From Humisphaera borealis (GTDB taxonomy: Bacteria; Planctomycetota; Phycisphaerae; Tepidisphaerales; Tepidisphaeraceae), in the NCBI RefSeq assembly GCF_015169395.1, contig NZ_CP063458.1:248001-312000 (forward strand): a stretch of DNA of 64,000 bases, given 5' to 3'. The notes beneath the pieces are model-generated. The model did no database searches. It was not told where the DNA came from and saw nothing but the letters and a program-made list of their open reading frames with translations. Below, piece by piece: positions 34,893 through 51,588 of this stretch; position 1 is the stretch's first letter; the number at the start of each line of letters is the position of its first letter. The position numbers were made by a program, and so were the translations under genes.

Positions 34893-34949
34893 CTCGATGT
34901 TTGCCCTGCGGGTGCAGCTTGCGATGTCTGCCCGGTGCGGGGTCTCAAC

Positions 34950-36089: not shown

Positions 36090-36273
36090 TCAGGCAGCTA
36101 AGGCCATTCAGACCGGTTATTGCCCCCATCCCGCACCGAATCGACGACTTGATGCCTGACTGGATCAGTCCCCCAGTTTCATTAATGGTCTGCCGCACGT
36201 CCCATCGGCCCTTTCACGAATGCTGAAGGCCCATCCGGGTGCTACGAGGCGATCCGGTCGGTATACTCAGGGA

Positions 36274-37752
36274 ATGGCACCCAGCCTCGTCGAACCGTCG
36301 CCTCCGTTGAGACAGAGCATCTCTCTCCCGGTACTCCCCCCTGAACCGCCCTTCGATTTCGCTGAAGCCAGCGTTGCCGCCGCCGGGAACACCAAGCTCA
36401 AGGCGTCGATCAACAATGCGGTGCTGCGGCAGCACACGGCGAGGCAACTTCGGATTCTTGAGCTGCCGGATTCCGACAAGCTGCGCGACCTGGCCGGGCG
36501 GATCAAGCAGCACACGCTCGATCACCTCGACTACTACCTCGAGCAGCTCGTGGTGAACGTCCGCAAGAATCGCGGACACGTCCATTTCGCCGTCGACGCC
36601 GACGAAGCCCGCCGAGTCATCCTGCAGATCGCCGCAGATGCCGAGTGCACGCGGGTCGTCAAAAGCAAGTCGATGGTCAGCGAGGAGATCAACCTTGCTC
36701 ACATCATGGAGGCGGCGGGGCTGGACGTGGTCGAAACCGATCTGGGCGAGTTCATCGTGCAGATCGACCACGACAAACCGAGCCATCTCGTCGCGCCGAT
36801 CGTTCACAAGGACAAGGCGAGCATCGCCAAGCTATTCAGCGAGTATTTCAAGACACCCTACAACGACGACCCCAACGCCCTTTGCAACCAGGCCCGAGAG
36901 TACCTGCGCGACAAGTTCCGCAAGGCCGACCTGGGCATGACCGGCGGTAACTTCCTGGTTGCCGAAACCGGCCTGGTCTGCTCGGTCGAAAATGAAGGCA
37001 ACCAGCGGCAGTCGGTCAGCACGCCTCGCGTGATGATCGCACTGGTCGGCATTGAGAAGATCGTTCCCCGCATGGCCGACCTGGCGGTGATGCTCAAACT
37101 GCTGACCCGCAGCGCCACCGGCGCGCCGATCACCATCTACAACAACATCTACGGCGGCCCCCGGTCTGCCGGCGAGAAGGATGGCCCCGAAGAGTTCCAC
37201 CTGGTGCTGGTCGACAACGGCAGGACGGAAATCCTGGCCAGCGAAGAGTACCGCGAGACGCTGCGCTGTATCCGCTGCGGGGCCTGTCTGAACGCCTGCC
37301 CGATCTACCGAAAGATCGGCGGTCATGCCTATGGCAGTGTTTACCCCGGGCCGATCGGTGCACTGATTACGCCACTCTTCAAGGGCCTGGAGAACTACAA
37401 GGATCTGCCGCAGGCCAGTTCCCTCTGCGGCGCGTGCTATGAAGCCTGCCCGGTCAAGATCAACATCCCCAAGCACCTGGTGAACATGCGGCGGGACATC
37501 AACCGCCGACACCTCAATGGCTTCTTCGAACGAGCCATCTACAAGACCTGGGCATGGAGCCTTAAGAGCCCGTTCCTTTACGGCATGAGCACGCTGATGC
37601 AGAAATGGGACCTCCGCCGTCGCGCCGGCGGCACCGGATGGATCGCCAAGCTGCCGATGTTCGCCGCCGGCTGGACGCAGGTGCGCGACATGCCCGCACC
37701 GGCGAAGAAGGCGTTTCACCAGATGTGGAAGAAGAGACCTGCGGGTCAATGA
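36274..37752 (+). CDS. lutB: lactate utilisation iron-sulfur protein LutB
   Basis: A protein of about 492 residues from the ATG at 36274 (an in-frame ATG at 36220 is possible). The N-terminal half is a LUD domain ('VRKNRGHVHFAVDADEARRVIL', 'VKSKSMVSEEINLAHIMEAAGLDVVETDLGE', 'GMTGGNFLVAETGLVCSVENEGN'). Two 4Fe-4S clusters are bound by 'CIRCGACLNACPIYRKIGG' and 'SLCGACYEACPVKINIPK'. It transfers electrons in the LutABC complex. Its TGA stop (37750-37752) lies inside the left arm of the inverted repeat before lutC. Confidence 0.95.
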   Translation: MAPSLVEPSPPLRQSISLPVLPPEPPFDFAEASVAAAGNTKLKASINNAVLRQHTARQLRILELPDSDKLRDLAGRIKQHTLDHLDYYLEQLVVNVRKNRGHVHFAVDADEARRVILQIAADAECTRVVKSKSMVSEEINLAHIMEAAGLDVVETDLGEFIVQIDHDKPSHLVAPIVHKDKASIAKLFSEYFKTPYNDDPNALCNQAREYLRDKFRKADLGMTGGNFLVAETGLVCSVENEGNQRQSVSTPRVMIALVGIEKIVPRMADLAVMLKLLTRSATGAPITIYNNIYGGPRSAGEKDGPEEFHLVLVDNGRTEILASEEYRETLRCIRCGACLNACPIYRKIGGHAYGSVYPGPIGALITPLFKGLENYKDLPQASSLCGACYEACPVKINIPKHLVNMRRDINRRHLNGFFERAIYKTWAWSLKSPFLYGMSTLMQKWDLRRRAGGTGWIAKLPMFAAGWTQVRDMPAPAKKAFHQMWKKRPAGQ

Positions 37753-37877
37753 CGAATGACGAAATCGGAATGGCGAATGAAGTGCCAAATCTCAATGATC
37801 AACTGCCGATCCGACTTCGTCATTTGAGCTTTGCTATTTGGGCTTCACTCTTCATTCGAGATTCGTCATTCGTCATT
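37748..37877 (+). repeat. AATGACG-word inverted repeat filling the lutB-lutC spacer
   Basis: AATGACGAATGACGAA (37748-37763) is perfectly complementary to TTCGTCATTCGTCATT (37862-37877). An inner second pairing, CGAATGAAGTG with CACTCTTCATTCG, extends the stem with a bulge. The left arm overlaps the lutB stop codon and the right arm ends 19 bases before lutC, so the repeat fills the spacer. Confidence 0.92.
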
Positions 37878-37896
37878 CCGATAAATCAGCCCTGAG

Positions 37897-38583
37897 ATGC
37901 CTCGAACCGTGTCCAATATGACTCCAGACCCGCTCACCCATCCCGTCATGGACCGCGTCCGCCAGTCGCTCGGCCGGACTGCACCGCGCGTCAATCCGCC
38001 GATTCCCCCGGAGATTGAAGAGCACGTTGTACGCCTGGTTCACAGCGATATCGGCTTGTCGGAGCTTTTCATCAAGCGGGCAAGCGAGATGAAGATGCTC
38101 GTCGAGGCGGTTGGCGTCGAGCAGCTTCTGACCCGCCTGACGGACTTCCTGAAGGAGCACGGGATCAAGCGGATCATGCTGTCGGACACGCCGATCATCC
38201 TGAAGCTCAATATCGTCGAGCACCTGCGACAGGCCGGCCTCGACGCCAAGCAGTGGGCCGACATGACCGCCGACGAGACCTACGACTTCGACTGCGGCGT
38301 GACGGAGGTCGACTACGCCGTCGCTGAGACCGGCACCGTCGCGATCCGCCACGGCCCGCACCACGGCCGGCTGTTGTCACTCGTCCCGTTCGTTCACGTA
38401 GCGATTGTGGAACCCCGGCTGATGGTGGCCGACCTGATCGACCTCTTCGCCGCCCTGAAGCGCGACGGCACCGGCAGTGGCACAACGCTCATCAGCGGCC
38501 CGAGCAAGACAGCGGACATTGAGATGAACACCGTCACCGGCGTTCATGGACCGAATATTGTGAAGGCTTTTGTACTGTCTTAG
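37897..38583 (+). CDS. lutC: lactate utilisation protein LutC (LUD domain)
   Basis: A 228-residue LUD-domain protein completing LutABC. It has 'SELFIKRASEMKMLVEAVGVEQLLTRLTDFLKEHGIKRIMLS', 'FDCGVTEVDYAVAETGTVAIRHGPHHGRLLSLVPFVHVAIVEPRLMV' and the C-terminal 'ISGPSKTADIEMNTVTGVHGPN', all conserved in YkgG/LutC proteins. An alternative start is the ATG at 37918. Downstream lies a GGGCGGGC-type palindrome and a DUF1963 gene. Confidence 0.93.
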   Translation: MPRTVSNMTPDPLTHPVMDRVRQSLGRTAPRVNPPIPPEIEEHVVRLVHSDIGLSELFIKRASEMKMLVEAVGVEQLLTRLTDFLKEHGIKRIMLSDTPIILKLNIVEHLRQAGLDAKQWADMTADETYDFDCGVTEVDYAVAETGTVAIRHGPHHGRLLSLVPFVHVAIVEPRLMVADLIDLFAALKRDGTGSGTTLISGPSKTADIEMNTVTGVHGPNIVKAFVLS

Positions 38584-39447: not shown

Positions 39448-39470
39448 CGGCGGGCAGTGCCCGCCCTACG
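39448..39470. terminator. GGCGGGC hairpin at the convergent DUF1963/DeoR ends
   Basis: GGCGGGC (39449-39455) and GCCCGCC (39459-39465) form a perfect seven-pair hairpin with an AGT loop. Read on the minus strand the unit starts TAGGGCGGGC, and its TAG (39466-39468) is the deoR stop codon. It may end transcription from both genes. Confidence 0.7.
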
Positions 39471-40239
39471 CGGCCACGATCAACTCACACCCCGCCTTGC
39501 GAACCGCATCAGCGTGCTGCGGCTCAATGCCGGCATCCGTGACGACGACGTGTACCCCCGACAATTCGCACAGGTTCGCCAGCGCCTGCTGGCCGAACTT
39601 GCTGCTGTCGGCGAGCAAAACCACCTGCTGCACCTGCCGCATCATCTGCCGTTCAGCTTGTACGAGCAGGAGATTCTGGTTGTAAATGCTGCCTTCATGC
39701 ACACCCGCACAGCTCAGAAAGAGCGTGGAGGCGTGGATGCTCGTCAGGAAAGTCTCGACGTGCGGTCCGAGCAGTACGCCGTAGCGCGGGTAGACCAGAC
39801 CGCCGGTCAGGAGCAGCTCGACGCTTTCATCGTTCAGGAACAGGTTGCCGATCGGCAGGGAGTTGGTGACCAGTTGCATCGAGCGGCCGGCCAGTTCGCG
39901 GGCCAGGAAGAATGTGCTCGTCCCACCGTCGATGAGCACCGTCTGTCCGGGTTTCACCAGCCCGGCGGCGGCTTTGGCGATCGCCAGTTTGTGTTCCTGC
40001 CGGAAGCTCATCCGCTGGTCGAACGCGTACGGCCGCGAGACCGCGGTCGGCATTTTCTCGCCCAGCCAGACGACGCCCCCGTGTGTTCGCTCGACGATGC
40101 CGGCTTCTTCAAGGGATTCGACGTCGCGGCGAATGGTGGATTGAGACACTCCCAGCTCCGCCGCGAGCGAATCCAGGTCGCTCGTGCCACGCTTGCTCAG
40201 GAGGTTTTTGAGGAGGTTTTGTCGGTCGACGATAAGCAT
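39466..40239 (-). CDS. DeoR-family regulator of the microcompartment operon
   Basis: A sugar-phosphate-responsive repressor of about 257 residues from the ATG at 40239 (a GTG at 40278 is possible). The N-terminal helix-turn-helix is 'LDSLAAELGVSQSTIRRDVESLEEAGIVERTHGG', followed by the DeoR sensor domain with 'KLAIAKAAAGLVKPGQTVLIDGGTSTFFLARELAG', 'VELLLTGGLVYPRYGVLLGP' and 'LLADSSKFGQQALANLC'. It is the last gene of the minus-strand microcompartment operon, so it probably controls the whole unit; the phased CAGAA boxes over the promoter at 51614-51646 are candidate operators. The inducer is likely a deoxyhexose phosphate or DHAP-type product. Confidence 0.93.
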   Translation of the reverse strand: MLIVDRQNLLKNLLSKRGTSDLDSLAAELGVSQSTIRRDVESLEEAGIVERTHGGVVWLGEKMPTAVSRPYAFDQRMSFRQEHKLAIAKAAAGLVKPGQTVLIDGGTSTFFLARELAGRSMQLVTNSLPIGNLFLNDESVELLLTGGLVYPRYGVLLGPHVETFLTSIHASTLFLSCAGVHEGSIYNQNLLLVQAERQMMRQVQQVVLLADSSKFGQQALANLCELSGVHVVVTDAGIEPQHADAVRKAGCELIVAA

Positions 40240-40342
40240 CAGGTACGGCGCGGCGGCGTTCGATTGTAGGGCCGGCACGGCCCGTGGGAACCATCAAGAT
40301 TCGCTGAAAAAATCAGTGTTTCGCGAAGCGGACGCCTTTTCG

Positions 40343-40364
40343 CGGCGGGCAGTACCTGCCCCTA
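40343..40364 (-). repeat. TAGGGGCAGG palindrome supplying a stop codon
   Basis: Read on the minus strand this unit is TAGGGGCAGGTACTGCCCGC plus CG, with the hairpin GGGCAGGTACTGCCC. Its TAG (40364-40362) is the stop of the aldolase-like gene. Related in sequence to the units at 38594 and 39448. Confidence 0.75.
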
Positions 40365-41690
40365 TCTGCTCCGATCGCGTGCGATCTCCGAGGCGATCCG
40401 CTGCCGTGACACCGCAACCTTTTGTGCGGGCGTCATCTTCGCAAAGTCGGGAGAGCCGTCGGCCTTGCGAGGGATCTCGCCGACGATTGCAGTGTCGATT
40501 TTTCTGGGCGCAGGGGTGTCTCCACCCGCCGTCGCCGCAGCTGCCGTTGCAATGGGTTTAGCCGATGCAGCATCGCCACCAGCAACGGCGGGCGAGGACG
40601 CCCGCGTTCCCACGACCGTCGCCACGACCTTCGGCATCGCCGGTACTGTCACTGCGCTGGGTTTGGTCGCGCCGCCGCCGGCGTAACTCATCTCCTGCGT
40701 GGTTAACTGCATGTCGTTGGCGAGGGTGCGAATGGGTTTGATTCCCAACTTTTGCAGTTCGCCATGGTACGCCTTCACCGCCTCTTCCGGCGTGATCTTC
40801 CCGTCGGCGAGCATTCGGAGGAACGTTATAAACGTGAGCTGATGTTCGCTGTTGTTGATCTTGCGGCCGTAAAGCGCCGCTCGAGCGCCATACTTCTTTG
40901 CCTCGGCCAGTTGCTTGAAGGCGTCGTACGTCGTGCCGCTGGCACCGCCCAAAATCCCAGGGACCAAGTGCGGGTCGTAGGTCGCGAGTTCTTCCATCGC
41001 CCGCGGGCCGTGGTAGACGATCTTGAGAAACACCGGCCGCCCGGCCTGCGGCACGCCGGCGAGCGTGCGGACGATCAGGTCGTTGATGAACCGCCCGAGG
41101 TCGGCGGGGCAGTGGTCGCCGCAGGCGTTGGGGTCGAACACTTCCAGGAAGTGCCGGAAGCCGACCCTTTCAGCCTCGATGCGGAAATCCTTGTACGCCA
41201 GCACCGTGGGGTAATCGAACTCGAGCTTGTTGTTCGGCGTGATCGAGTAGAGGCCGAGGTCCGCGCCCAGACGTCGCTCGGCCGGTGTCGGATTGACCTT
41301 GCCGCTCTGGATCTGTTCCAGCGTCGCGCTGCGGAACGGCCGCGACGGCTCAGCCCCGTAGGTTCCCCCGGCCGGCAGGTGAATGTCGGTCGTGTCGTTG
41401 GCCCGGGCGGCGGGGGTGATCGCGGTGCCGTCGAACAGCCGTTCGCGGATGCAAAGCTGATCGTTCGTGCTGGCCGAGGTCAGGACAATATCGACCAGGC
41501 CCTGCCTGATGACCTGGCGGATCTGGTCGCGGTAGTTGGCCAGCGACCGCCGCTTGCCGGTGACATGATCCACGCCCGTCGCCGCCAGACCGGTGGCCAT
41601 GTCCGCGTCCTTGGCGTCGGCAAGGATGAAGTCCTTGCTACCGCTGGGATCGCGATGGATGTTGGCGAGCTTTTCGTCGAGGGACTTCAT
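40362..41690 (-). CDS. microcompartment-associated TIM-barrel aldolase-like protein with encapsulation-type tail
   Basis: A 442-residue protein. Residues about 20-320 look like a class I aldolase-type TIM barrel ('GLVDIVLTSASTNDQLCIRERLFDG', 'LAYKDFRIEAERVGFRHFLEVFDPNACGDHC', 'VFLKIVYHGPRAMEELA' with Lys223 as a possible Schiff-base residue, 'GILGGASGTTYDAFKQLAEAKKYGARAALYGRKIN'). An alanine/threonine/proline linker (about 340-395) leads to a short amphipathic helix 'MTPAQKVAVSRQRIASEIAR', which resembles encapsulation peptides. It is conserved in planctomycete microcompartment loci as far as I know, but its reaction is not established. An upstream arginine-rich extension to 41933 was rejected. 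Confidence 0.82.
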   Translation of the reverse strand: MKSLDEKLANIHRDPSGSKDFILADAKDADMATGLAATGVDHVTGKRRSLANYRDQIRQVIRQGLVDIVLTSASTNDQLCIRERLFDGTAITPAARANDTTDIHLPAGGTYGAEPSRPFRSATLEQIQSGKVNPTPAERRLGADLGLYSITPNNKLEFDYPTVLAYKDFRIEAERVGFRHFLEVFDPNACGDHCPADLGRFINDLIVRTLAGVPQAGRPVFLKIVYHGPRAMEELATYDPHLVPGILGGASGTTYDAFKQLAEAKKYGARAALYGRKINNSEHQLTFITFLRMLADGKITPEEAVKAYHGELQKLGIKPIRTLANDMQLTTQEMSYAGGGATKPSAVTVPAMPKVVATVVGTRASSPAVAGGDAASAKPIATAAAATAGGDTPAPRKIDTAIVGEIPRKADGSPDFAKMTPAQKVAVSRQRIASEIARDRSR

Positions 41691-41731: not shown

Positions 41732-42637
41732 TCACTTCTGCAGATTCAGCGCGGCGGGTTTTGCCCCGGACAGTGCGGTCTCCGGACCCTGCGGAGGAAA
41801 GTCTAGGGCCACCGCGGCCTGCCACTCCTGCGGGCCCCCGCTGAGCCGTACTCGGACCGGCGTCTCGGTCCCGTCGGCGGCGGCGACTGCCACCTTCGCG
41901 TCGTAGAGGCCGATCGGGATGTCGAGCACGCACGCCGCATTGGAGCCCATGTCCGCCAGCGGCAGTCGCTTGACGATCGGCTCGCCCTTAGAACCGTCCA
42001 GGAGCGGCCCGCGCGGCGTCAGCCTGACGACGACCGTCGCGTCCTTGGGAAAGTCCTGGTTGAGGCGGCGGTTCCCGATCCCGCCATCCCCGAGGTCGAT
42101 CCGGGCACCGTAATAAGCCAGCTTTCGGAGCACCGGCGACTTATCGTCCCCGCCGGGGCGGAGACCTGAGATCTTGGCGACGAAGTCGCGGACGATGCCC
42201 GGCCGAGTGTCCGGGCCGATACCCTTGCCGTCGCGCAGGCTGAGCTTCCCATCGGTCGGCCAGAGTTCGAGCTTGTATGGCTTGCCGTTGTATTCGATCG
42301 CCGTCTTGGCCGACAGGTTGGCGGCGAACCCGGCGGGCACCTCCAGGTCGTACGTGCCGTCCTTCGCATCGCCGTGGGCGATCGTGGCCGGGGCCGTCAC
42401 GGTCGCCCGGTTAGCGTCGCCGACAAACCCACTGCAGACGACGGTGAAGGCCGGGATCGGCTTGCCGTCGGAGAACGTCGCCCGGCCGATCGCGTGGCCG
42501 GGCTTGGCCACCAGCGGGGCCGGGACGGCCGGCTTGTCGCCCGACGCCGGTTTGTCTTGGGCGTGGCCCTGGCTCGACCCGAGAAGCGAGGCGATCAAAA
42601 ACGCGTACGCCGCGATCGATGTCCAGCGAATGCCCAT
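41732..42637 (-). CDS. secreted protein encoded inside the microcompartment operon
   Basis: A 301-residue protein with a signal peptide (MGIRWTSIAAYAFLIASLLG ending 'SSQGHAQ') and an AGGAGA site before the ATG at 42637. The mature part has 'PGHAIGRATFSDGKPIPAFTVVCSGFVGDANRATV', 'GTYDLEVPAGFAANLSAKTAIEYNGKPYKLELWPTDG' and later 'IGLYDAKVAVAAADGTETPVRVRL', which read as beta-sandwich domains of the carboxypeptidase-regulatory type. Export is at odds with a cytosolic organelle, so it may handle the extracellular polysaccharide substrate. It is tightly placed between the aldolase-like and dehydrogenase genes. Confidence 0.8.
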   Translation of the reverse strand: MGIRWTSIAAYAFLIASLLGSSQGHAQDKPASGDKPAVPAPLVAKPGHAIGRATFSDGKPIPAFTVVCSGFVGDANRATVTAPATIAHGDAKDGTYDLEVPAGFAANLSAKTAIEYNGKPYKLELWPTDGKLSLRDGKGIGPDTRPGIVRDFVAKISGLRPGGDDKSPVLRKLAYYGARIDLGDGGIGNRRLNQDFPKDATVVVRLTPRGPLLDGSKGEPIVKRLPLADMGSNAACVLDIPIGLYDAKVAVAAADGTETPVRVRLSGGPQEWQAAVALDFPPQGPETALSGAKPAALNLQK

Positions 42638-42719
42638 GGAGAATCTCCTTCTCTCCCCAACCTCCGACCTTGTGCGGAGGTCGATCATCCGGGCGGGAAA
42701 CACGTTCCCGACGCCTGCT

Positions 42720-43643
42720 CTACTTGATCTGTCCCCAGGTCGCGTCCAGCGCCTTACAGCTCGCTTGGAAGCCGCTCGCTTCGCGTGGCCAGAGTTCGAT
42801 TTCAAATCGCTTCAGCACGCCGCCCTTGCCGACGAGCGTCGGCACGCTGGTGCAGGTGCCTTTCACGCCGTACTCGCCGGTCAACTGGCTGCTCACCGGC
42901 AGAACCTTGGGTTGATTGAGCACGATCGGGTGAATCACCTCGGCGATGCTCAGTGCGACGGCGCGGCCTGCGCCGCCTTTGAGACTGATGCACTCGGCAC
43001 CGCTCTTCTTGGTCCGTTCAAACACCTTGTTCTGCTGTACGGCGTTGAAGTTTGGCAGCTTGGTCAGCGGGATGCCGCCGGCCTCGGCGGTGCTCCAGAC
43101 GGGGACCATGCTGTCGCCGTGCTCGCCGATGATCAGCGCCTTGATCTGGCTCGCCGGCAGGCCGGTCTCGAGTGCGATCAGGCTGCGGAAGCGGGCGGTG
43201 TCGAGCACTGTGCCCAGGCCGATGCAGCGAGCCGGTTCCCACTTGAGCGTCTCGATCGCCAGGCGCGTCAGGATGTCGACCGGGTTGGAGACGACGAAGA
43301 TGATCGCGTCCTTCTTCAGCCCGGCGCCCTTGAGCGACTCCAGCACCTGCTTGAAGAGCGACACGTTGCGGTTGATCAGATCCAGCCGGCTCTCATCCGG
43401 CTTGCGGCGCAGGCCGGCGGTAATGCAGACGATGTCGGCATCGGCGGCACGGTCGTACCCGCCGGCGTAGATCTTCTGATCGCCGATGATGCTGCAGCCG
43501 TGGAGGAGGTCGAGGGCTTCGCCCTCGGCCATTTTCTCGTTGGCGTCGAGGAGGTGGATTTCAGAGACGATGCCCGCGCACTGCAGCGCGAACGCCGCAT
43601 CTGAGCCGACCCGTCCACCGCCGCCGATGATGCTGACTTTCAT
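42720..43643 (-). CDS. lactate/malate dehydrogenase-family enzyme of the microcompartment
   Basis: A 307-residue NAD(H)-dependent 2-hydroxyacid dehydrogenase-fold protein: Rossmann motif 'KVSIIGGGGRVGSDAAFALQ', 'DIVCITAGLRRKPDESR' with the substrate loop Arg residues, 'VVSNPVDILTRLAIETL', catalytic His in 'IIGEHGDSMVPVWS'. In the PVC-type microcompartment such an enzyme is assigned to recycling NADH, possibly by reducing lactaldehyde to 1,2-propanediol or handling lactate. Substrate specificity cannot be read from the sequence. Confidence 0.9.
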   Translation of the reverse strand: MKVSIIGGGGRVGSDAAFALQCAGIVSEIHLLDANEKMAEGEALDLLHGCSIIGDQKIYAGGYDRAADADIVCITAGLRRKPDESRLDLINRNVSLFKQVLESLKGAGLKKDAIIFVVSNPVDILTRLAIETLKWEPARCIGLGTVLDTARFRSLIALETGLPASQIKALIIGEHGDSMVPVWSTAEAGGIPLTKLPNFNAVQQNKVFERTKKSGAECISLKGGAGRAVALSIAEVIHPIVLNQPKVLPVSSQLTGEYGVKGTCTSVPTLVGKGGVLKRFEIELWPREASGFQASCKALDATWGQIK

Positions 43644-43651
43644 AGAGGTCT

Positions 43652-43762
43652 CGTAGGGTCCGCCTTAGCGGACGCGATGCCCGCCTAGGCGGACCGATGT
43701 CGTCGTATGCGTGGGAACTCTGGCGAAGCGATGCCTTCGCGTCCGCCAAGGCGGACCCTACG
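43652..43762 (-). repeat. TAGGGTCCGCC inverted pair between aldolase and dehydrogenase genes
   Basis: The arm at 43652-43676 and the inverted arm at 43738-43762 agree at 24 of 25 positions, and each contains the palindrome TCCGCC-TT-GGCGGA. The right arm overlaps the end of the aldolase gene, whose stop TAG (43760-43758) is part of the repeat. A further CCGCCTAGGCGG palindrome lies at 43681-43692. Confidence 0.93.
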
Positions 43763-44693
43763 CCGTCGCCATGATCTGGTCCGTGATCGTCTGGATAAGC
43801 GTCTCCATGTCGGCTTCGCTGACGTTCGCCGGCAGCGAGGGGAGCATCGACGCAATCGCATCGCCCAGGCCGCCGCTGGGCGGGCAGGCGCAGCTCGCGT
43901 TGCCGCTGCTGGTGACGCCGCTGGCGGTCTGAACCTTGCCGCGGGTGGCGATGTCGCCGCCGACGCGGGTCAGGAAGTCGCTTGAGCAGCTCATCCCTTC
44001 GCCGCCGTTATCGAGGCGCGGTTCACGCAGGCCGAAGCGAACCTTCAACTCCAGCAGTTCCTTCATTTCCTTCGAATCCAGCGGACGGACCGAGCCCAGG
44101 CTCTTGGCGAGCATCAGGATTCGGCTGTAGGCGTCGACGATTTCAAGCTTGTAGTACGCCTCTTCGAGGCTCGTGCTGAACGTCACCGTGCCGTGGTTCT
44201 GTAGCAGGATGGTGTTGCTGTCCTTGAGGAACGGGATCAGCGATTCGCCCAGCCGCTTGTCGCCGGGCGTGACGTACTTGGCGGTCTTGACGACGCCGAG
44301 GAACACCTCGGCCTCGGGGTGAATGCAGGTCGGCAGCTCGACGCCGGCGATCGCGAACGCCGTCGCGTGAGGCGGATGACTGTGAACCACGGCCTTCACG
44401 TCCGGCCGCTGCTTGTAGATTTCCAGATGCATCAGCATTTCGCTGGTGCGTTTCCGCTTGCCGGCGAGCTGCTTGCCTTCGATGTCCACTGTGCAGATGT
44501 CATCAGGCTTCAGGAAGCCTTTGCTGATACCCGTCGGCGTGCAAAGGAATTTGTTCGGTCCGATCTTCAGCGAGTGATTGCCTTCGTTGCCGGCGCAGAA
44601 GCCTTTGAGCCAGATGCGGCGGCCGATCTCGCACATCTCTTCTTTGAGCTTGAACTCGGAGACGCCGTTGTTGCTGGTGGATGTGTAGGCCAT
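43758..44693 (-). CDS. class II aldolase (fuculose/rhamnulose-1-phosphate type) with C-terminal targeting tail
   Basis: A zinc-dependent aldolase of 311 residues expected to cleave L-fuculose-1-P or L-rhamnulose-1-P to DHAP and L-lactaldehyde, the entry step of the PVC-type microcompartment. Zinc ligands His104, His106 ('VVHSHPPHA') and His167 ('LLQNHGTV') and acid Glu85 are present. After the catalytic domain (to about 225) comes a long linker with an odd Cys cluster ('NASCACPP') and a final amphipathic helix 'SEADMETLIQTITDQIMATA', the encapsulation peptide type. An alternative start six codons upstream exists at 44711. Confidence 0.93.
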   Translation of the reverse strand: MAYTSTSNNGVSEFKLKEEMCEIGRRIWLKGFCAGNEGNHSLKIGPNKFLCTPTGISKGFLKPDDICTVDIEGKQLAGKRKRTSEMLMHLEIYKQRPDVKAVVHSHPPHATAFAIAGVELPTCIHPEAEVFLGVVKTAKYVTPGDKRLGESLIPFLKDSNTILLQNHGTVTFSTSLEEAYYKLEIVDAYSRILMLAKSLGSVRPLDSKEMKELLELKVRFGLREPRLDNGGEGMSCSSDFLTRVGGDIATRGKVQTASGVTSSGNASCACPPSGGLGDAIASMLPSLPANVSEADMETLIQTITDQIMATA

Positions 44694-44757
44694 AGGTTCT
44701 TCTCGATTCATTTACGGACGCATGCGGCTCGGCAGGCCCGGCCAATCAGTGACCCGT

Positions 44758-45051
44758 TCAGATTTCGTGCTTCACCGTCACCGTATCCAGGATCGCGCAG
44801 TTGTACGCATCGAGCGGCACGCGCTTCTCCGGGTAGAACGGCATCGTCGCTTCGCGGCTTTCGGTGAATGCGATCGTGTCGCCTTCGCCGGCGCCGAAAT
44901 GGTCGTACACGACCAGGGCTTCCTTCGACCTGCGAGGCTTGCCGACCAGGCTGAACCGATCCTGCACCTCAACGATCAGAAACCGGCCGCCTACGAGCGT
45001 GTCGTAGATGGGGCTGAGGGTGAGACGGCCGATCACTTTGCCGATTCGCAT
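44758..45051 (-). CDS. BMC-P shell pentamer protein (EutN/CcmL family), copy 1
   Basis: A 97-residue shell vertex protein: 'MRIGKVIGRLTLSPIYDTLVGGRFLIVEV', 'KEALVVYDHFGAGEGDTIAFTESREATMPFYPEKRVPLDAYNCAILDTV'. The 'GEGD' turn and 'D-x-x-x-V/I' ending are family features. Pentamers cap the vertices of the polyhedral shell. One of three BMC-P genes in the operon. No ribosome site is seen because the spacer repeat reaches the start codon. Confidence 0.94.
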   Translation of the reverse strand: MRIGKVIGRLTLSPIYDTLVGGRFLIVEVQDRFSLVGKPRRSKEALVVYDHFGAGEGDTIAFTESREATMPFYPEKRVPLDAYNCAILDTVTVKHEI

Positions 45052-45122: not shown

Positions 45123-45821
45123 TCAGCCGCAAGTCGCAAGCTCTGCTAACTGCCGCTGCACGTCCGGCGATAACTCTCGTTTCGCCCGGGCGAACCGGCC
45201 GAGCATCGTCTTGATCTGCGGAAACGCCTTGTGCGGGTGTTCGATCACCAGCACGTTCGCCGCGACCTGCTGAATGCCTTGCTCGACCGCTTCCAGGCAG
45301 GTGCCTACAACGGCACGGATGCTCGGGCAGCGGTTGGCGAACACCATCGCAACGGCGGCGTTCTGCACCACGATCGCGGCGGAACTCGCACTGCCCGACT
45401 TCAGTTCTCCCGCGATCGTCTTGACTACCGCGACGATCTGCTTCGGATCCTGCGGCAGATCGATCGGACGCAGCAGCGATTCCTTCGCCTGACCGGTGAG
45501 CGCCGCCTTCGCCGCGCCGCAGGGGCCGTCACACCACCAGAGCAGGGGGGTGGTGGGTTGTTCTGTTGCGTACTGTGCGATCGACGCTTGCCCGGCTGTG
45601 CCGGGAACCCCGCCCTGCGGGCGGGCGCTAGAAGGGGCACTGGTCGTGACTGTGCCTGTTGCGCTCTTCGAAGCGTCGTCGCAATAGCCCAGTGAGACCT
45701 TCTTCAACCGGATCCAGTCCTGCGCCATCGGCGTCAGCCGGGCGCGGTACGGAAGCGTGATACGCCCGGCGCTGCCGCTTTCGCGGTGCAGTTGTTCAAG
45801 TTGCCGGGCGGTGAAGAACAT
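45123..45821 (-). CDS. RpiB/LacA-like microcompartment-associated protein
   Basis: A 232-residue protein starting MFFTARQLEQLHRESG. A short N-terminal module ('RITLPYRARLTPMAQDWIRLKKVSLGY', 20-46) resembles segments seen in other microcompartment enzymes. A low-complexity linker (about 50-92) follows, then a region similar to RpiB/LacA/LacB sugar-phosphate isomerases ('AAIVVQNAAVAMVFANRCPSIRAVVGTCLEAVEQGIQQVAANVLVIEH', 149-195). Such a protein is characteristic of planctomycete microcompartment loci. Enzymatic activity is uncertain since the classical RpiB Cys-Gly-Thr-Gly loop is not evident. The upstream frame to 45968 consists of repeat and was rejected. Confidence 0.8.
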   Translation of the reverse strand: MFFTARQLEQLHRESGSAGRITLPYRARLTPMAQDWIRLKKVSLGYCDDASKSATGTVTTSAPSSARPQGGVPGTAGQASIAQYATEQPTTPLLWWCDGPCGAAKAALTGQAKESLLRPIDLPQDPKQIVAVVKTIAGELKSGSASSAAIVVQNAAVAMVFANRCPSIRAVVGTCLEAVEQGIQQVAANVLVIEHPHKAFPQIKTMLGRFARAKRELSPDVQRQLAELATCG

Positions 45822-45830
45822 ATTTCTTAC

Positions 45831-46026
45831 CCCCTCTCCCTCGTACTCGGGGGAGAGGGTTGGGGTGAGGGGCCGAACGTCGGGCACCTCGATTCGCAAA
45901 CACGACTCACTGCAAGCTCGACTCGCGGAACCCGCGACGACGTCGCAGGGCTCTCTTGGGCAAGTCACAACGCCTTAGGTTCGGCCCCTCACCCTAACCC
46001 TCTCCCCTGAGTACAGGGGCGAGGGG
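45831..46026 (-). repeat. CCCTCTCCCC/GGGTGAGG long inverted repeat before the RpiB-like gene
   Basis: Arms at 45831-45878 and 45979-46026 match at 43 of 48 positions, with a 100-base centre. Each arm has its own internal hairpin (CCCTC...GTACTC...GAGAGGG). It fills the whole spacer between BMC-P copy 2 and the RpiB-like gene. Words of this type (CCTCACCCTAACCCTCTCCC) are common in intergenic DNA of many unrelated bacteria. Confidence 0.93.
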
Positions 46027-46034
46027 ACCGGACA

Positions 46035-46292
46035 TCATTCGTCGGCGAGCGCGATCACGAAATACCGCACCGGGCTTTTGTCATGGCCGATCAGGTCTCT
46101 CGCGGCCTTGCCGTCACTGTTCAGTATCACCGTCTGTCCCGGCGACGCGCCCAGCGAATCGGCGGCAATCACCGGATCGGCCTCGGGCTGACGCTCGCTG
46201 TTGATCGGCTGGACAATCGACAACTTCCAGCCCTTCATCGAAGGATGCTTGATAGTCGCAGTCGCGTAGCCGATGACGGTTCCGAGAAGCAT
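46035..46292 (-). CDS. BMC-P shell pentamer protein (EutN/CcmL family), copy 2
   Basis: An 85-residue protein, 'MLLGTVIGYATATIKHPSMKGWKLSIVQP', 'DPVIAADSLGASPGQTVILNSDGKAARDLIGHDKSPVRYFVIALADE'. This is the EutN/CcmL beta-barrel pattern, closest to classic EutN. It supplies shell vertices. There is no visible ribosome site because repeat DNA directly abuts the ATG. Confidence 0.95.
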   Translation of the reverse strand: MLLGTVIGYATATIKHPSMKGWKLSIVQPINSERQPEADPVIAADSLGASPGQTVILNSDGKAARDLIGHDKSPVRYFVIALADE

Positions 46293-46376: not shown

Positions 46377-47867
46377 CTAAATCATCCTCAACGATCCGGT
46401 CATCATGATCCGGCGATACCGCGTGAACGTCAGCGGTGTCGTAATGCCTTCGCCCGTGGGTGTCGCGATGCTGTAGCTCAGAAAACCCTGACCACCGAGG
46501 CCCAGGCCACTGGGGCTGCCGCCGTTGACGACGAACAGCGTGGTCGCCGCACGCCGACCGAACCGGGTGATCGTGTCGAGGTTGCGGCTGTGGATCAGGG
46601 CCGTGTGGCGATAGCCATGTTCCGACTGGATCGCCAGGTCGATCGCCTCGTCCACGTTCTTCACGCGGACGAACGGCACGAAGGGCATCATCTGTTCTTC
46701 CTGGACAAACGGATGATCTTTGTTGGTTTCACCCACCAGTAGCTGGGTGGTGGGGGGCACGGAAGTGCCCGCCGCCGCTGCCAGGACGCTTGCGTCCTTG
46801 CCGACGAAATCCTTGTTCACGTGCGGCTTGTTGTCTTTGGGGTCGATGACGAACGCGCGGCCCGTGAGAGCTTCGATCTGCCGGGCGTTCAGGATAAAGC
46901 CGCCGGCCTTTTCCATCTCGGTCATCAGCTTGTCGAACACGCTCTCGACACAGAAGACCTGCTTTTCGCCAATGCACAGAAGATTGTTGTCGAATGATGC
47001 GCCCGCGACGATGCTGCGGGCGGCATTCTGGAGGCAGGCAGTCTCATCAACCACCACCGGCGGATTGCCGGGGCCGGCGACGATCGCCCGCTTGCTGGCC
47101 TTCAACGCCGCGCGGGCCACCGCCGGGCCGCCGGTCACGACCAGCAACTGAATGCCGCGATGATTGAAGATCTGGTCGGCGGTTTCGAGCGTCGGCGGGA
47201 CGATACAGGTGATCAGGTGATCGACGCCGTACTTGGCGTTGATCTGCTTGTTGTACTCGGCGACGGCGATCGCGGCGCAGTTGGTGCCACTTGGGTGCGG
47301 ATTGGCGACGATCGCGTTGCCGCCGGCAATCATGCTGACCGCGTTGGCCGACAGGGTGGGGACGGAGTGGGTGACGGGCGTGATGATGCCGATGACGCCG
47401 AACGGTGCGTACTCTTCGAGGCAGACGCCGTTCGAGCCGCTGTCGGCGGTGGTCTTCAGGAACTCAACGCCAGGAACAAGCTCGAGGATCTGGAGCTTCT
47501 CGATCTTGTGATCGAGCCGACCGATCTTCGTCTCATCGAGTTCGATCTTGCCCCAGAGCTGCGCGTTCTGCTTGGCGATCGACTTGATCAGCTTGACGAT
47601 GCCGTCGCGGTCGGCGAGCGACAGACGGCTAAGCTTCTTCTGGGCCTCGGTCGCTGCGGCGACGCACTGATCGACCGAGCCGAAGATGCCGTGCTGGCCG
47701 ATGGGGACGGAAACGGTTGGCCCGCGCGACGCGATTTTGGCGTCATTGGCCGCGGCGTCTTCGCCGGCGCGAACGCCACCAGAGTTCGATGCCGGTGAGC
47801 CGGGGGTCTTATTGCCCAGGCGACGCATCACCTCGGCGACGACATCTTGTACGAGTGCTTGCGTCAT
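46377..47867 (-). CDS. CoA-acylating aldehyde dehydrogenase of the microcompartment (PduP/EutE-like)
   Basis: A 496-residue enzyme converting lactaldehyde (or another short aldehyde), CoA and NAD to acyl-CoA. The N-terminal helix 'MTQALVQDVVAEVMRRLGN' (1-19) is a typical encapsulation peptide, joined by a Gly/Ser/Ala-rich linker (20-48). The catalytic Cys298 lies in 'FDNNLLCIGEKQVFC'; cofactor motifs include 'PFGVIGIITPVTHSVPTLSANAVSMIAGGNAIV' and 'VVTGGPAVARAALKASKRAIVAGPGNPPVVVD'. Length matches EutE/PduP. It is the core signature enzyme of the organelle. Confidence 0.95.
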   Translation of the reverse strand: MTQALVQDVVAEVMRRLGNKTPGSPASNSGGVRAGEDAAANDAKIASRGPTVSVPIGQHGIFGSVDQCVAAATEAQKKLSRLSLADRDGIVKLIKSIAKQNAQLWGKIELDETKIGRLDHKIEKLQILELVPGVEFLKTTADSGSNGVCLEEYAPFGVIGIITPVTHSVPTLSANAVSMIAGGNAIVANPHPSGTNCAAIAVAEYNKQINAKYGVDHLITCIVPPTLETADQIFNHRGIQLLVVTGGPAVARAALKASKRAIVAGPGNPPVVVDETACLQNAARSIVAGASFDNNLLCIGEKQVFCVESVFDKLMTEMEKAGGFILNARQIEALTGRAFVIDPKDNKPHVNKDFVGKDASVLAAAAGTSVPPTTQLLVGETNKDHPFVQEEQMMPFVPFVRVKNVDEAIDLAIQSEHGYRHTALIHSRNLDTITRFGRRAATTLFVVNGGSPSGLGLGGQGFLSYSIATPTGEGITTPLTFTRYRRIMMTGSLRMI

Positions 47868-47874
47868 AGGGGGT

Positions 47875-48008
47875 AGAAGTCGGGAGTCAGAAGTCGGGAG
47901 TCAGACGTCGGGAGTCAGACGTCGGGAGTCAGACGTCGGGAGTCAGACGTCGGAAGATGAAACCGCAATTCCATCCTCGGACTTCTGACTTCCGGCTCCT
48001 AGCTTCTT
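47875..48008 (-). repeat. 14-bp tandem array with short opposite arm before the aldehyde dehydrogenase
   Basis: Five head-to-tail copies of AGAMGTCGGGAGTC fill 47875-47944, followed by a partial unit to 47953. The first two have AGAA, the rest AGAC. A single degenerate opposite arm (about 47978-48008, CGGACTTCTGACTTCCGGCT) overlaps the BMC-P copy 3 stop codon. The copies are nearly identical, suggesting recent slippage. Confidence 0.95.
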
Positions 48009-48319
48009 GCCGAATAGAACGTCTTTCCCGCGAACTGGGCCGAATCGACGATACCGATGATCACCGCGTCGGCCGGAAGGTTCTTGGTCTGCTCGGTCAT
48101 GCGGGCCGAAGAGCCCTGGCAAACGAGCACCAGTTGTCCTTCGCCGGCACCTACCACATCCAACGCCACAATCGCCCGCCCGGTGTTACCGAGCGAGGAA
48201 GGCTGGTTGGCGTCGTCGTACTTCACGTTCAAGGGCTCGACCACGAACAGCTTCTGGCCGTTGAGGGTCTTGTCCTTGGCGGTGGCGACGACGTGGCCGG
48301 TGACACGAGCTATGAACAT
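47999..48319 (-). CDS. BMC-P shell pentamer protein (EutN/CcmL family), copy 3
   Basis: A 106-residue shell vertex protein: 'MFIARVTGHVVATAKDKTLNGQKLFVVEPLNVKYDD', 'GRAIVALDVVGAGEGQLVLVCQGSSARMT', 'LPADAVIIGIVDSAQF'. The 'D-x-VGAGEG-x-x-V' turn is highly conserved in EutN/CcmL proteins. The stop TAG (48001-47999) begins the spacer repeat. Confidence 0.95.
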   Translation of the reverse strand: MFIARVTGHVVATAKDKTLNGQKLFVVEPLNVKYDDANQPSSLGNTGRAIVALDVVGAGEGQLVLVCQGSSARMTEQTKNLPADAVIIGIVDSAQFAGKTFYSARS

Positions 48320-48423: not shown

Positions 48424-48690
48424 TCATCCCATTTTCGCCACGTCGCTATGCGGACGTGCGATGACGTGCACGCTGACGACTTCGCCGACGCGGCCGGCGG
48501 CCTCGGCGGCGGCGTCCATCGCGGCGCGGACGGCGGCAACATCGCCGCGGAACGTCACCGCGACCAGGCCGTTACCGACCATGTGCTTCTCGACGTACTC
48601 GACGTTCGCCGACTTCAGCGCCGCGTCCGTTCCTTCAACCGCCGCGACAATGCCGCGGGTCTCGATCAAACCGATTGCTTCGTTTGCCAT
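48424..48690 (-). CDS. BMC-H shell hexamer protein, copy 1
   Basis: An 88-residue Pfam BMC-domain protein starting MANEAIGLIETRGIVAAVEG. The pore segment reads 'KHMVGNGLVAVTF' (Gly-Asn-Gly), followed by 'RGDVAAVRAAMDAAAEAAGRVGEVVSVHVIARPHSDV'. Hexamers of this type tile the shell facets. The frame can be extended upstream over repeat DNA to 48813, which was rejected. Confidence 0.95.
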   Translation of the reverse strand: MANEAIGLIETRGIVAAVEGTDAALKSANVEYVEKHMVGNGLVAVTFRGDVAAVRAAMDAAAEAAGRVGEVVSVHVIARPHSDVAKMG

Positions 48691-48697
48691 TGTGTTC

Positions 48698-48846
48698 CAG
48701 TAGGCAGTAGGCAGTAAGCAGTACGCAGGAAGGCAGAGATCACTCCGCCTGTCGCCCGACGACTGTTTCCACCAAGGACTCTCGAACGTTTCAGTACACC
48801 TTCGGCCAGGCATTTCACTGCCTACTGCCTACTGCGTACTGCTTGC
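48698..48846 (-). repeat. 7-bp module inverted repeat between acetate kinase and BMC-H copy 1
   Basis: The left arm from 48698 reads AGTAGGC-AGTAGGC-AGTAAGC-AGTACGC-AGGAAGGC. The right arm (48817-48846), reversed, reads AAGC-AGTACGC-AGTAGGC-AGTAGGC-AGT. Both arms use the same module variants but in a shifted order. The right arm ends six bases from the acetate kinase stop. Confidence 0.92.
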
Positions 48847-48851
48847 TTCCG

Positions 48852-49967
48852 CTAATTCTGACTCAACACCGCTTCCGTCTGCCGCGCCACAATCAACTCT
48901 TCGTTGGTGGGCACGATCCAGACCTCGGCGTTGCTTTCCAGCTTGCTGATCTTTTCTTCCTTCGCCCGAACCTGGTTCTTTGTCGGGTCGAGCACGATGC
49001 CGGCCCAGTGCAGGTTGCGGCAGATCGCCTCGCGGATGGCGATTCCGTTCTCGCCGATGCCGCCGGTGAAGGCGAGCACATCGATGCCGCCAAGGACGAC
49101 CAGGTATTGTCCGATGAAGCTCCGAACGCTTTCGACAAACGCGTCGAGTGCGAGCTGAGCGCGGGCATTACCGCCGGCGGCAGCTTTCTCGATGTCGCGC
49201 ATGTCGGGGGAGACGCCGCTCATCCCGAGCATGCCGCCTTCTTTGCCGAGCTTCTTGAAAATGTCGTCGAGGCTCAGGCCCTGCTTGAGCAGCTTGAGCA
49301 TCGCAAAGGTGTCGAACTCGCCGACACGATTGTTGTGCGGCACACCCGACTGCGCCGTCATGCCGAAGCTGTTGGCCACGCTCTTGCCGTTTTCGATTGC
49401 CGTGACAGAGCAGCTGCCGCCGAGGTGGCAACTGATGATCCGGCGGCTGTTTTCCTTGCCGACCAGTTCCGGCACGCGGGTCGCGATGTAGCGATGGCTC
49501 GCGCCGTGGAAGCCGTATCGGCGGATGCCGAGTTTTTCGGTCCAGTCGTGCGGGATCGCGTAGACCTGCCGGCTGAGCGGGATCGTCTGGTGGAACGCCG
49601 TCTCGAACGCCGCCACCTGCGGGCACTTCGGCATCTTCTGCCGGAAGGCTTTCATCGCGGCGATGTAAGGCGGGTTGTGGGCCGGCGCGACGTCGGAAAA
49701 CTGCTCCATCGTCGCGATGACTTCATCGGTCACCCGCACCGCGCCGCTGATCGGCCCGCCGTGAACGGCTTTGAAGCCGATCGCGTCAGGGGGCTTCGGG
49801 AGCGTCTTGAGGATGACGTCGATGACGTCGCCGTGCGTAGCGAACTCCGACCCGGCCTGGCCGATGCGCTCGTAGCCGCCCCGCGCAACTTCATCGCCGC
49901 CGCTCGACATGTCGAGCAGCTTGAACTTGAAGCTGGTGGAACCGAGGTTGGCGACGAGGACAAGCAT
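48852..49967 (-). CDS. ackA: acetate kinase-family acyl kinase
   Basis: A 371-residue ASKHA-fold kinase that makes ATP from an acyl phosphate (acetyl-, propionyl- or here lactyl-phosphate). Motifs: 'VANLGSTSFKFKLLD', 'FKAVHGGPISGAVRV', 'VAAFETAFHQTIP', 'RRYGFHGASHRYIA', 'IISCHLGGSCSVTAIENGKSVANSFGMTAQSG' and 'VLAFTGGIGENGIAIREAI'. It is slightly shorter than the 400-residue classic AckA. It lacks an obvious encapsulation peptide, so it may act outside the shell, completing the PduL pathway. Confidence 0.94.
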   Translation of the reverse strand: MLVLVANLGSTSFKFKLLDMSSGGDEVARGGYERIGQAGSEFATHGDVIDVILKTLPKPPDAIGFKAVHGGPISGAVRVTDEVIATMEQFSDVAPAHNPPYIAAMKAFRQKMPKCPQVAAFETAFHQTIPLSRQVYAIPHDWTEKLGIRRYGFHGASHRYIATRVPELVGKENSRRIISCHLGGSCSVTAIENGKSVANSFGMTAQSGVPHNNRVGEFDTFAMLKLLKQGLSLDDIFKKLGKEGGMLGMSGVSPDMRDIEKAAAGGNARAQLALDAFVESVRSFIGQYLVVLGGIDVLAFTGGIGENGIAIREAICRNLHWAGIVLDPTKNQVRAKEEKISKLESNAEVWIVPTNEELIVARQTEAVLSQN

Positions 49968-50064: not shown

Positions 50065-50352
50065 TCAGGCTCCAAAACCCGCGAGCAGGTCTGGGTGGGG
50101 GCGGGCGATCACGTGCGACGCGATTACTTCGCCGACCTTGCCGGCGGCTTCAGCGCCGGCGTCGATCGCGGCCTTCACGCTGCCGACGTCGCCGCGGACG
50201 ACGGTCGTCACGAAAGCGCCACCGATCTGGATCGTCTTGACGATCTCGACGTTGGCGGCCTTGGTCATTGCATCGGTCGCCTCGACGAGAGGGACCCAGC
50301 CCTTGGTTTCGATCAGGCCGAGGGCCTGGCCGTATCCGTTTGATTCTGCCAT
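50065..50352 (-). CDS. BMC-H shell hexamer protein, copy 2 (atypical pore)
   Basis: A 95-residue BMC-domain protein, '[38 protein letters not shown]', with '[36 protein letters not shown]'. The pore segment is '[11 protein letters not shown]', giving Gly-Gly-Ala where the other two copies have Gly-Asn-Gly and Gly-Ser-Gly, so pore chemistry should differ. GGAGA precedes the ATG. Confidence 0.95.
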
Positions 50353-50465: not shown

Positions 50466-50777
50466 TTACTTCTTCACTGCCGGTGCTACTGCGGGAGCGC
50501 CCTTCTTCTTGGGGTACATGCCCGGCAGTTCGTCGTGCGGGCGGGCGATGACGTGAACCGCCACCACCGTGCCGATACGGCCGGCTGCTTCGGCGCCGGC
50601 GTCGACGGCAGCCTTGACGGCGGCGACGTCGCCTTTGACGAACGACGTGACCATACCGCTGCCGCACTTGTCCCAGCCGAGAATTTCGACGTTGGCCGAC
50701 TTGAGCATCGCGTCGGTCCCCTCCATGAGGGCGACCAGACCTTTGCATTCAAGAAGACCGAGAGCTTCGCTTGCCAT
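50466..50777 (-). CDS. BMC-H shell hexamer protein, copy 3, with C-terminal extension
   Basis: A 103-residue BMC-domain protein starting MASEALGLLECKGLVALMEG, with pore segment 'DKCGSGMVTSF' (a Cys directly before Gly-Ser-Gly) and '[37 protein letters not shown]'. A basic proline/alanine tail 'PGMYPKKKGAPAVAPAVKK' follows the domain. GAGGAAA lies before the ATG. It is the most promoter-proximal shell gene, probably the most abundant tile. Confidence 0.95.
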   Translation of the reverse strand: MASEALGLLECKGLVALMEGTDAMLKSANVEILGWDKCGSGMVTSFVKGDVAAVKAAVDAGAEAAGRIGTVVAVHVIARPHDELPGMYPKKKGAPAVAPAVKK

Positions 50778-50790
50778 AGCTTTCCTCTTC

Positions 50791-50876
50791 GAGTGTGGAT
50801 TGTTGAGTGTCGATTGTCGGAGCCGCTCACGTTCGCGCGCAACCAGCGACAATCCACATTCCACAATCGACGATCA
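50791..50876 (-). repeat. GTGGATTGT/GTCGATTGT word inverted repeat between pduL and BMC-H copy 3
   Basis: The left arm (50791-50820, GAGTGTGGATTGTTGAGTGT...) and the right arm (about 50844-50876, CAGCGACAATCCACATTCCA...) are inverted copies made of two words, GTGGATTGT and GTCGATTGT, that appear in opposite order in the two arms. The right arm abuts the pduL stop. Confidence 0.9.
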
Positions 50877-50877
50877 C

Positions 50878-51588
50878 TTACTTGATCAGTTCCATATGCG
50901 TCGCCGATTCCAGGTCGCAGGCGTTGCCCTCGTCGGTGTCGATGTGCACCTCGAGGACCACCTTCGGGTGGTAGCGAACCTTGAGCCGGTCGAACGTGAC
51001 GCCGCACGGGCCGTCGATTTTCAGTTTCATGTAGTCGCCGTCTTTGACGCCGTAGTAGCTCATGTCTTCGGTGGACATGTGCACATGGCGTTCGGCGCGA
51101 ATGACACCCTTGTCGATCGTCAGCGAGCCTTTGGGGCCGAGGATCGTGCAGCCGGGGGTGTCTTTGTGATTGCCGCTGATGCGAAGGGGCAGATCGATGC
51201 CGAGGTAGATGCCGTCGGTGTAGGACAGCTCGATCTGCGTGTAGTCGCGCATCGGGCCGAGGATGCGAACGTTGGGGATGATCCGCTGGCGGGGGCCAAC
51301 GACCGTCACGAGCTGCTCGCTGGCGAACTCGCCCTGCTGATAAAGATCTTTGAGCTTCGTGAGCTTGGCGCCGGGTCCGAAGAGGATCTCCAGGTGCTCC
51401 TGCTTCACGTGCATGTGGCGAGCCGAGACATTCACCACCAGCGGGTGCGGCGGGCCACCGGCCTGGCTGGGCTGCCTGGCGTGCTGCTCGCGGGCGGTGG
51501 GGCCGCCTCGAAGCTTCTGCGTGAGCACCTCGCGAACGAGACGCTCGACCTCGGACCGGTTCAAGTTGGTTGTCTGCATCGTCGGCAT
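50878..51588 (-). CDS. pduL: PduL-type phosphotransacylase
   Basis: A 236-residue phosphate acyltransferase that converts acyl-CoA (lactyl-CoA in this pathway) to acyl phosphate and regenerates CoA inside the organelle. The N-terminal helix 'LNRSEVERLVREVLTQKLR' (9-27) is an encapsulation peptide, joined by a linker (28-48). The two PduL zinc motifs are RHMH at 57-60 and RHVH at 167-170, with a further His215 in 'VLEVHIDTDEGNAC'. It is the first gene of the operon; the ATG at 51588 has AGGAAA upstream. Confidence 0.96.
   Translation of the reverse strand: MPTMQTTNLNRSEVERLVREVLTQKLRGGPTAREQHARQPSQAGGPPHPLVVNVSARHMHVKQEHLEILFGPGAKLTKLKDLYQQGEFASEQLVTVVGPRQRIIPNVRILGPMRDYTQIELSYTDGIYLGIDLPLRISGNHKDTPGCTILGPKGSLTIDKGVIRAERHVHMSTEDMSYYGVKDGDYMKLKIDGPCGVTFDRLKVRYHPKVVLEVHIDTDEGNACDLESATHMELIK

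Follow-up and report, generated by a model that had tools for sequence, protein, structure and literature searches.

The open reading frame at 40362-41690 on the minus strand of the window (the whole 64,000-nucleotide stretch of Humisphaera borealis DNA that was analysed) is a real, well-bounded and unannotated gene for a second aldolase-type protein of PVM microcompartment loci, with a lineage-specific tag. The explanation that we favour, with a probability of roughly 0.55, is that it encodes a class I ketose-phosphate aldolase that was tagged once and recruited as optional PVM cargo. The enzyme would belong to a class I (Schiff-base) family unnamed in Pfam or NCBIfam. Its substrate would be a phosphorylated ketose, with ketohexose or 6-deoxyketohexose 1-phosphates the likeliest, and its products DHAP and an aldehyde. 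Its ancestor would have been an ordinary enzyme of cytosolic sugar operons, to which a long linker and a conserved C-terminal helix would have been added in a single event that coincided with recruitment as an optional extra cargo. The aldehyde (lactaldehyde or glyceraldehyde) would be passed to the aldehyde dehydrogenase (ALDH), PduL and kinase already there. Beside the class II aldolase, such an enzyme could widen the range of ketose stereoisomers or substrates.

The gene and the surrounding PVM operon

The reading frame starts with the ATG at 41690 and encodes 442 amino acids. Homologue alignments begin at this ATG and not at a GTG that lies further upstream. Its neighbours are a DeoR-type regulator and, on the upstream side, a hypothetical gene whose end at 41732 is 41 bases away. 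The locus is of PVM type and contains BMC-H, three BMC-P, ALDH, PduL, class II aldolase, LDH-type dehydrogenase, acetate kinase and DeoR genes (Table 1). Axen et al. describe the PVM locus as handling fucose and rhamnose via lactaldehyde (PMC4207490).

Table 1. Coordinates of the aldolase-like gene, its parts and its operon in the window
Feature	Position	Strand	Basis
CDS, class I aldolase-like protein (442 aa)	40362..41690	-	ORF and homologue starts; within PVM operon
Barrel domain (predicted), residues 1-337	40680..41690	-	AlphaFold2 and structural matches
Lys223 codon, proposed Schiff-base lysine, strand 6	41022..41024	-	invariant in A1 and wider set; aligned with LsrF Lys203
Disordered linker, residues 338-412	40455..40679	-	pLDDT <50 over 338-399; length varies
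C-terminal tail, conserved motif and helix, residues 413-442	40365..40454	-	motif, predicted helix, host association
DeoR-type regulator	39466..40278	-	PF00455
Hypothetical gene	41732..42805	-	apparent signal peptide (by eye); no family above cut-off
Lactate/malate dehydrogenase-type enzyme	42720..43643	-	PF00056/PF02866
Class II aldolase, classical-looking C-terminal tag	43758..44711	-	PF00596; tag by helical-moment test
BMC-P	44758..45051	-	PF03319
BMC-P	46035..46292	-	PF03319
Acylating aldehyde dehydrogenase (ALDH), N-terminal tag	46377..47867	-	NF011927 over cut-off
BMC-P	47999..48319	-	PF03319
BMC-H (start uncertain)	48424..48813	-	co-aligns with BMC-H at 50065-50352
Acetate kinase	48852..49967	-	TIGR00016 over cut-off
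BMC-H	50065..50352	-	matches annotated EutM/PduA/PduJ
BMC-H (start uncertain)	50466..50864	-	co-aligns with BMC-H at 50065-50352
PduL, N-terminal tag	50878..51588	-	PF06130

At E 0.001 the aldolase-like protein has no hit among Pfam and NCBIfam models. Among PDB sequences it has no match as a single sequence and none with E below 0.5 as a profile. Because there is no domain model, Pfam-based microcompartment surveys would miss the gene. Passages of PMC4207490, PMC8217296, PMC8857213, PMC13274419 and PMC6620236 do not name a second aldolase in PVM loci; this is a statement about those passages and not about the literature in print.

Three further features of this region are recorded here. The hypothetical gene upstream has an apparent signal peptide, although the operon is that of a cytosolic organelle. 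The C-terminal half of the gene at 45123-45968 (minus strand) weakly matches the RpiB-type model PF02502 (E 0.0017, below cut-off), and a similar frame recurs in PVM loci. Close to the operon, at 34140-38583 on the plus strand, are LutA/LutB/LutC-like genes (LUD-domain proteins and an LdhH-like C-terminal half), which would oxidise the lactate expected from the PVM pathway.

Fold and conserved residues of the barrel

An AlphaFold2 model was made from an alignment of 69 homologues (A1), drawn from the 83 that remained after redundancy thinning of 88. Its mean pLDDT is 85.0, and most of the barrel lies above 90. Eight strands follow in the barrel order of the class I aldolase superfamily's (beta/alpha)8 fold (E22-27, 68-71, 92-96, 145-150, 179-184, 222-224, 244-247 and 271-274). 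An earlier note on this DNA had proposed a TIM-barrel domain; the predicted barrel bears this out, and comparison with known folds makes it an aldolase barrel of the LsrF/FbaB type. The same note's report of two different aldolase folds in one operon also holds, the other aldolase belonging to PF00596.

Foldseek matches to the model include ADH synthase, LacD, LsrF and archaeal FBP aldolase (best E 8.0e-10, TM by target 0.70). With VIA-align, ADH synthase (MJ0400, 2qji) scores Z 23.6 (rmsd 3.0, 255 aligned), LsrF (4p2v) Z 23.0 (rmsd 2.8, 251 aligned), archaeal FBP aldolase (1w8s) Z 22.7 (rmsd 2.7, 241 aligned) and the Salmonella YihT protein Z 20.9 (rmsd 3.6, 254 aligned). The scores of the first three are tied, and the predicted model does not pick a function from among them. 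They fail to separate aldolase from thiolase, which counts against the aldolase reading. DeoC is not among the best 50 structural matches listed, an absence that carries no weight.

Sequence models point the same way. The ADH-synthase model PRK07226 is listed for 65 of the 69 A1 members (best E 7.1e-6), the LsrF model for 41, TIGR01949 for 39 and an archaeal FBP aldolase model for 35, all far below curated cut-offs. In a profile-profile comparison with twelve LsrF/DhnA sequences, A1 aligns over residues 155-312 with E 1.9e-8 and a probability of 95.4; hhalign matches to single LsrF or YihT sequences are weak. One of three weak whole-genome matches to the gene (G039) overlaps an LsrF-type gene.

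The barrel shares its fold, the lysine on strand 6 and the GG and GR motifs where strands 7 and 8 end with the DhnA-type aldolases. It differs from them in its low identity (12-17%) and its greater length, with linker and tail. PF01791, the DhnA/DeoC-LacD model, is listed for none of the 69 members at E up to 10, in a search whose filters drop most weak matches. The DHG motif of strand 1 is missing, and ADAKDAD stands in its place; DH is invariant in the LsrF/DhnA set (A2). Since the PF01791 model is not listed and the DHG motif is missing, we call the barrel a new family within the class I aldolase superfamily and not a DhnA member. The predicted structure and the alignments together make the case for fold and superfamily strong.

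Conservation was counted in 116 sequences (117 aligned, L152 left out). D25, K27, D28, D30, E183, K223, G248, G249, G275, R276 and I278, among others, are at least 98% conserved. D25 lies on strand 1, E183 on strand 5 and K223 on strand 6; the GG and GR pairs follow strands 7 and 8, where alignments with LsrF/DhnA place the phosphate site. This agrees with the general arrangement of these strand positions in class I aldolases. A GRKI motif is conserved as well. K223 is invariant in A1 and aligns with LsrF K203, and catalysis would run through this lysine.

Distribution of the gene and host association of its tail

A scan of genome contigs gives at least 584 relatives, 80 of which were kept. 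These are 51-75% identical in the best segment and come mostly from Planctomycetota, with others from Sumerlaeota, KSB1 and an Acidobacteria-labelled bin. In a KSB1 bin (L028:9115-9966, plus strand), the gene stands directly after a GatY/FbaA-like ketose-bisphosphate aldolase gene (TIGR00167 over cut-off).

Among 392 sampled genomes of the phylum, 34 match, 31 of them strongly (E at most 7.3e-104) and three weakly. BMC-P is present in 124 of the 392 (123 over cut-off) and in 30 of the 31 genomes with a strong match; the exception, G129, is 91% complete. The association has a Fisher p of 1.6e-15 with kinship ignored. All 19 genomes whose copy sat on a stretch without PVM genes have BMC-P elsewhere. 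The converse does not hold, as 94 of the 124 BMC-P genomes have no strong match to the gene. Ten such loci were read (L116-L125): each holds a PVM set that includes class II aldolase, ALDH, PduL and kinase, and in none is there a trace of the gene. The aldolase-like enzyme is therefore accessory, not core, in PVM organelles.

Residues 338-399 of the AlphaFold2 model have pLDDT below 50 and are rich in Ala, Gly, Pro, Ser and Thr, consistent with the Ala/Thr/Pro linker that had been claimed. The terminal helix, residues 421-441, is predicted confidently (pLDDT mostly about 90) and contains AQKVAVSRQRIASEI at residues 422-436. The earlier claim of a final amphipathic helix is confirmed for the helix but not for its amphipathicity: of 5000 column shuffles, 1206 attain the tail's family-mean helical moment. 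The corresponding counts are 362 for the N-terminus of PduL, 177 for that of ALDH and 103 for the C-terminus of the class II aldolase. These three ends share a pattern like LVREVL, VVQEVL or LVQTITDQVM and are classical-looking, as had been proposed for them; the fourth appears to differ from an ordinary encapsulation peptide, which counts against the favoured reading. Single-sequence hydrophobic-moment tests of the tail were uninformative.

PMC8217296 defines an encapsulation peptide as a terminal helix joined by a flexible linker, and the predicted model has such a helix behind such a linker. Unlike encapsulation peptides, the tail is not demonstrably amphipathic and carries a fixed motif with charged and aromatic positions; on its sequence it appears to be of another kind than the three classical-looking tags. 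The end motif PDFxKMTxAEKxAYxxxRxxRIxG is kept among homologues while the preceding linker varies from 15 to 93 residues, a combination that makes the motif more than chance. P-D-F, M, T/S, E/Q-K/R, Y/W and R are nearly fixed, as would be expected of a binding motif. Searching the fetched stretches for the motif gave 122 pattern matches assigned to the gene by script and three not so assigned (two patterns on L040, one on L084), which by eye are also the gene's tails; no other protein on these stretches has it. The tail alone matches only designed proteins among PDB sequences, weakly (E 0.033 and 0.75).

The tail was surveyed in 117 proteins (88 of the first set, 15 from further planctomycete loci and 14 from plasmid loci), near-duplicates included. 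Of the 73 copies whose stretch also holds PVM genes, 71 have it. This count comprises 58 of 60 copies with shell or class II aldolase genes and 13 of 13 with only LDH, DeoR, acetate kinase, ALDH or PduL genes. Where the stretch has no PVM genes, 24 of 30 copies have the tail; among the six without it, L138 is cut off by the end of its contig. None of the 14 proteobacterial plasmid orthologues has it; they end at 327-343 amino acids and simply have no room for a tail, and the tail score was trained on the same family and leans towards it. The earlier note had taken absence of the tail from orthologues as grounds for rejection. The outcome points in the opposite direction: the tail is lacking in the orthologues examined outside microcompartments (0 of 14) and kept in nearly all of those inside (71 of 73), a comparison based, for the plasmid hosts, on their plasmid records. 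Among the matches listed for the aldolase-like gene and for BMC-H (47 records each), no plasmid record occurs in both.

In a quick maximum-likelihood tree of 116 rows (L138 left out; SH-aLRT support only; midpoint root), the tail label changes four times, compared with 17.9 times in shuffles. Rooted on the tail-less side, the tree shows the tail gained once and lost three times (in L069 with L078, in L136 and in L137), each time in copies that stand away from PVM genes. These four copies lie in genomes with BMC-P, which counts against recruitment. The copy of G129, the host without detected BMC-P, has no tail and branches just outside the tailed group. Four tail-less planctomycete frames show no lost tail when read beyond the stop. 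The host association of the tail is strong. Its presence in organelle-linked relatives and not in the examined outsiders suggests, at the level of sequence, that an ordinary enzyme was tagged and recruited.

The tailed aldolase would then lie in the lumen. A rival with perhaps a minor share of the probability gives the same enzyme another address, in which the tail binds the aldolase to a partner enzyme or to the shell's outer face, so that the aldolase stays outside the lumen. The nearly fixed polar and aromatic positions, the lack of demonstrable amphipathicity that sets this tail apart from the other three and the restriction of the motif, on the fetched stretches, to this one protein all speak for docking. 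A second kind of lumen tag would look identical, however, and PMC4207490 takes the organelle's aldehyde producers to be inside. If the tail is a lumen tag, it may represent another class of cargo tag that could serve to load shells.

Gene neighbours, the reaction and alternative readings

The 14 plasmid homologues fetched are 40-49% identical, lie in sugar operons and are called "hypothetical protein" wherever annotated. Twelve of their loci are annotated, and 11 have a sugar kinase within the operon or beside it; L161 is the sole exception. The kinase is of the carbohydrate-kinase family in L151, L153 and L160, DhaKL in L162 and an ADP-dependent sugar kinase in L163. An FGGY kinase occurs with a glycerol-3-phosphate dehydrogenase/oxidase in L152, L154, L157, L158 and L159, and with an FAD-dependent oxidoreductase in its place in L164. 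L152 also has an ALDH directly downstream. In the six FGGY loci, from rhizobia and Vibrio, the barrel gene shares an operon with an importer, the kinase and the glycerol-3-phosphate-dehydrogenase-like (or FAD) oxidoreductase, probably an undescribed sugar-alcohol pathway.

Kinases also occur beside the gene in some other loci. G129 has a ketohexokinase gene (PF25270, E 1.8e-42), the barrel gene, an epimerase-like gene (by eye) and a GH38 gene packed on one strand. In L133 a PfkB kinase gene abuts the barrel gene, in L007 one follows it inside a PVM locus, and in L018 a relative of that kinase is divergently placed. Most PVM-linked copies have no kinase beside them, which counts against a ketose phosphate as substrate. 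Two candidate partners were rejected: the L133 PfkB kinase scores better than E 1e-30 only in its own genome and G127 (2 of 52), and PF25270 followed taxonomic class, not the barrel gene. In the same 52 genomes, of which 31 have the gene, 13 have BMC-P and lack it and 8 are further ones, the fucose and rhamnose isomerases PF07881 and PF06134 show no co-occurrence pattern with the gene, another point against the favoured reading. Clustering of conserved neighbours among the frames of 52 loci with the gene returned mostly antisense frames and the RpiB-like PVM gene.

The earlier note had called the reaction unknown; gene context narrows its kind to the cleavage of a phosphorylated ketose. That kinases of different families stand next to one and the same barrel suggests a sugar phosphate as substrate, and kinase together with polyol-phosphate oxidase suggests a ketose phosphate. 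The aldolase fold with phosphate motifs would give DHAP and an aldehyde, for which the organelle setting makes lactaldehyde or glyceraldehyde likely. A possible working analogue is the sulfofructose-phosphate aldolase YihT, which has the same fold and a sugar-kinase neighbour. YihT cleaves a ketose 1-phosphate to DHAP and a lactaldehyde-type product. E. coli YihT has no significant sequence alignment with the barrel family (E 0.73).

Two other microcompartment aldolases bear comparison. The PVM class II aldolase, the known signature enzyme of these loci, is proposed in PMC4207490 to make an aldehyde from a deoxyketose phosphate; the barrel protein shares its operon and differs in superfamily and mechanism. 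In SPU microcompartments a DeoC-type class I aldolase (PF01791) is presumed cargo, according to PMC8217296. It is likewise a class I aldolase, with another locus type, partner (RpiB) and substrate, and the barrel protein has no PF01791 match. As for why one organelle should have two aldolases, complementary stereospecificity is the favoured reason. FucA and RhaD set 3R stereochemistry, FBP and TBP aldolases 3S. We offer only tentatively the fuller proposal that a new kind of organelle tag, gained once, made a cytosolic ketose-phosphate aldolase into cargo, and that two unlike aldolases of complementary stereospecificity let one PVM shell take 6-deoxyketose phosphates beyond the reach of the class II enzyme.

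An LsrF-like thiolase would transfer the acyl group of a phosphorylated diketone to CoA, giving DHAP and acyl-CoA, from which PduL and the kinase would make acid and ATP. In its favour, LsrF scores level with the top structural match (Z 23.0 and 23.6), its model is listed for 41 of 69 members and autoinducer-2 kinase is a secondary match of the plasmid FGGY kinases. We nevertheless think this improbable: ADH synthase and FBP aldolase fit equally well, the FGGY kinases match xylulokinase best, and the ketohexokinase, DhaKL and polyol-phosphate oxidase partners require no diketone. Slightly less probable still is a fructose-bisphosphate aldolase that works in the condensing direction and uses the class II aldolase's DHAP for gluconeogenesis. 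The archaeal FBP aldolase matches the structure closely (Z 22.7), but a class I FbaB-type match is already present elsewhere in the genome (C1:2175574), and the kinases and importers that neighbour the gene outside organelles speak for uptake and breakdown. A catalytically dead barrel retained as a scaffold would suit a gene that is absent from many PVM genomes, and is very improbable given that the tail-less sugar-operon homologues, too, conserve the lysine, the acidic positions and those of the phosphate site.

If the tagged ketose-phosphate aldolase is the right reading, the protein would give the PVM organelle a second enzyme that produces aldehyde and would alter the organelle's range of food. 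Tail-less enzymes of sugar operons and tailed ones of organelles would form a natural before-and-after of the recruitment of a cytosolic enzyme into a bacterial organelle. The barrel itself is an unannotated enzyme family across rhizobia, Vibrio and planctomycetes.

In groups f38 and f48, many planctomycete genomes have five BMC-P genes and not three, perhaps a second microcompartment type.
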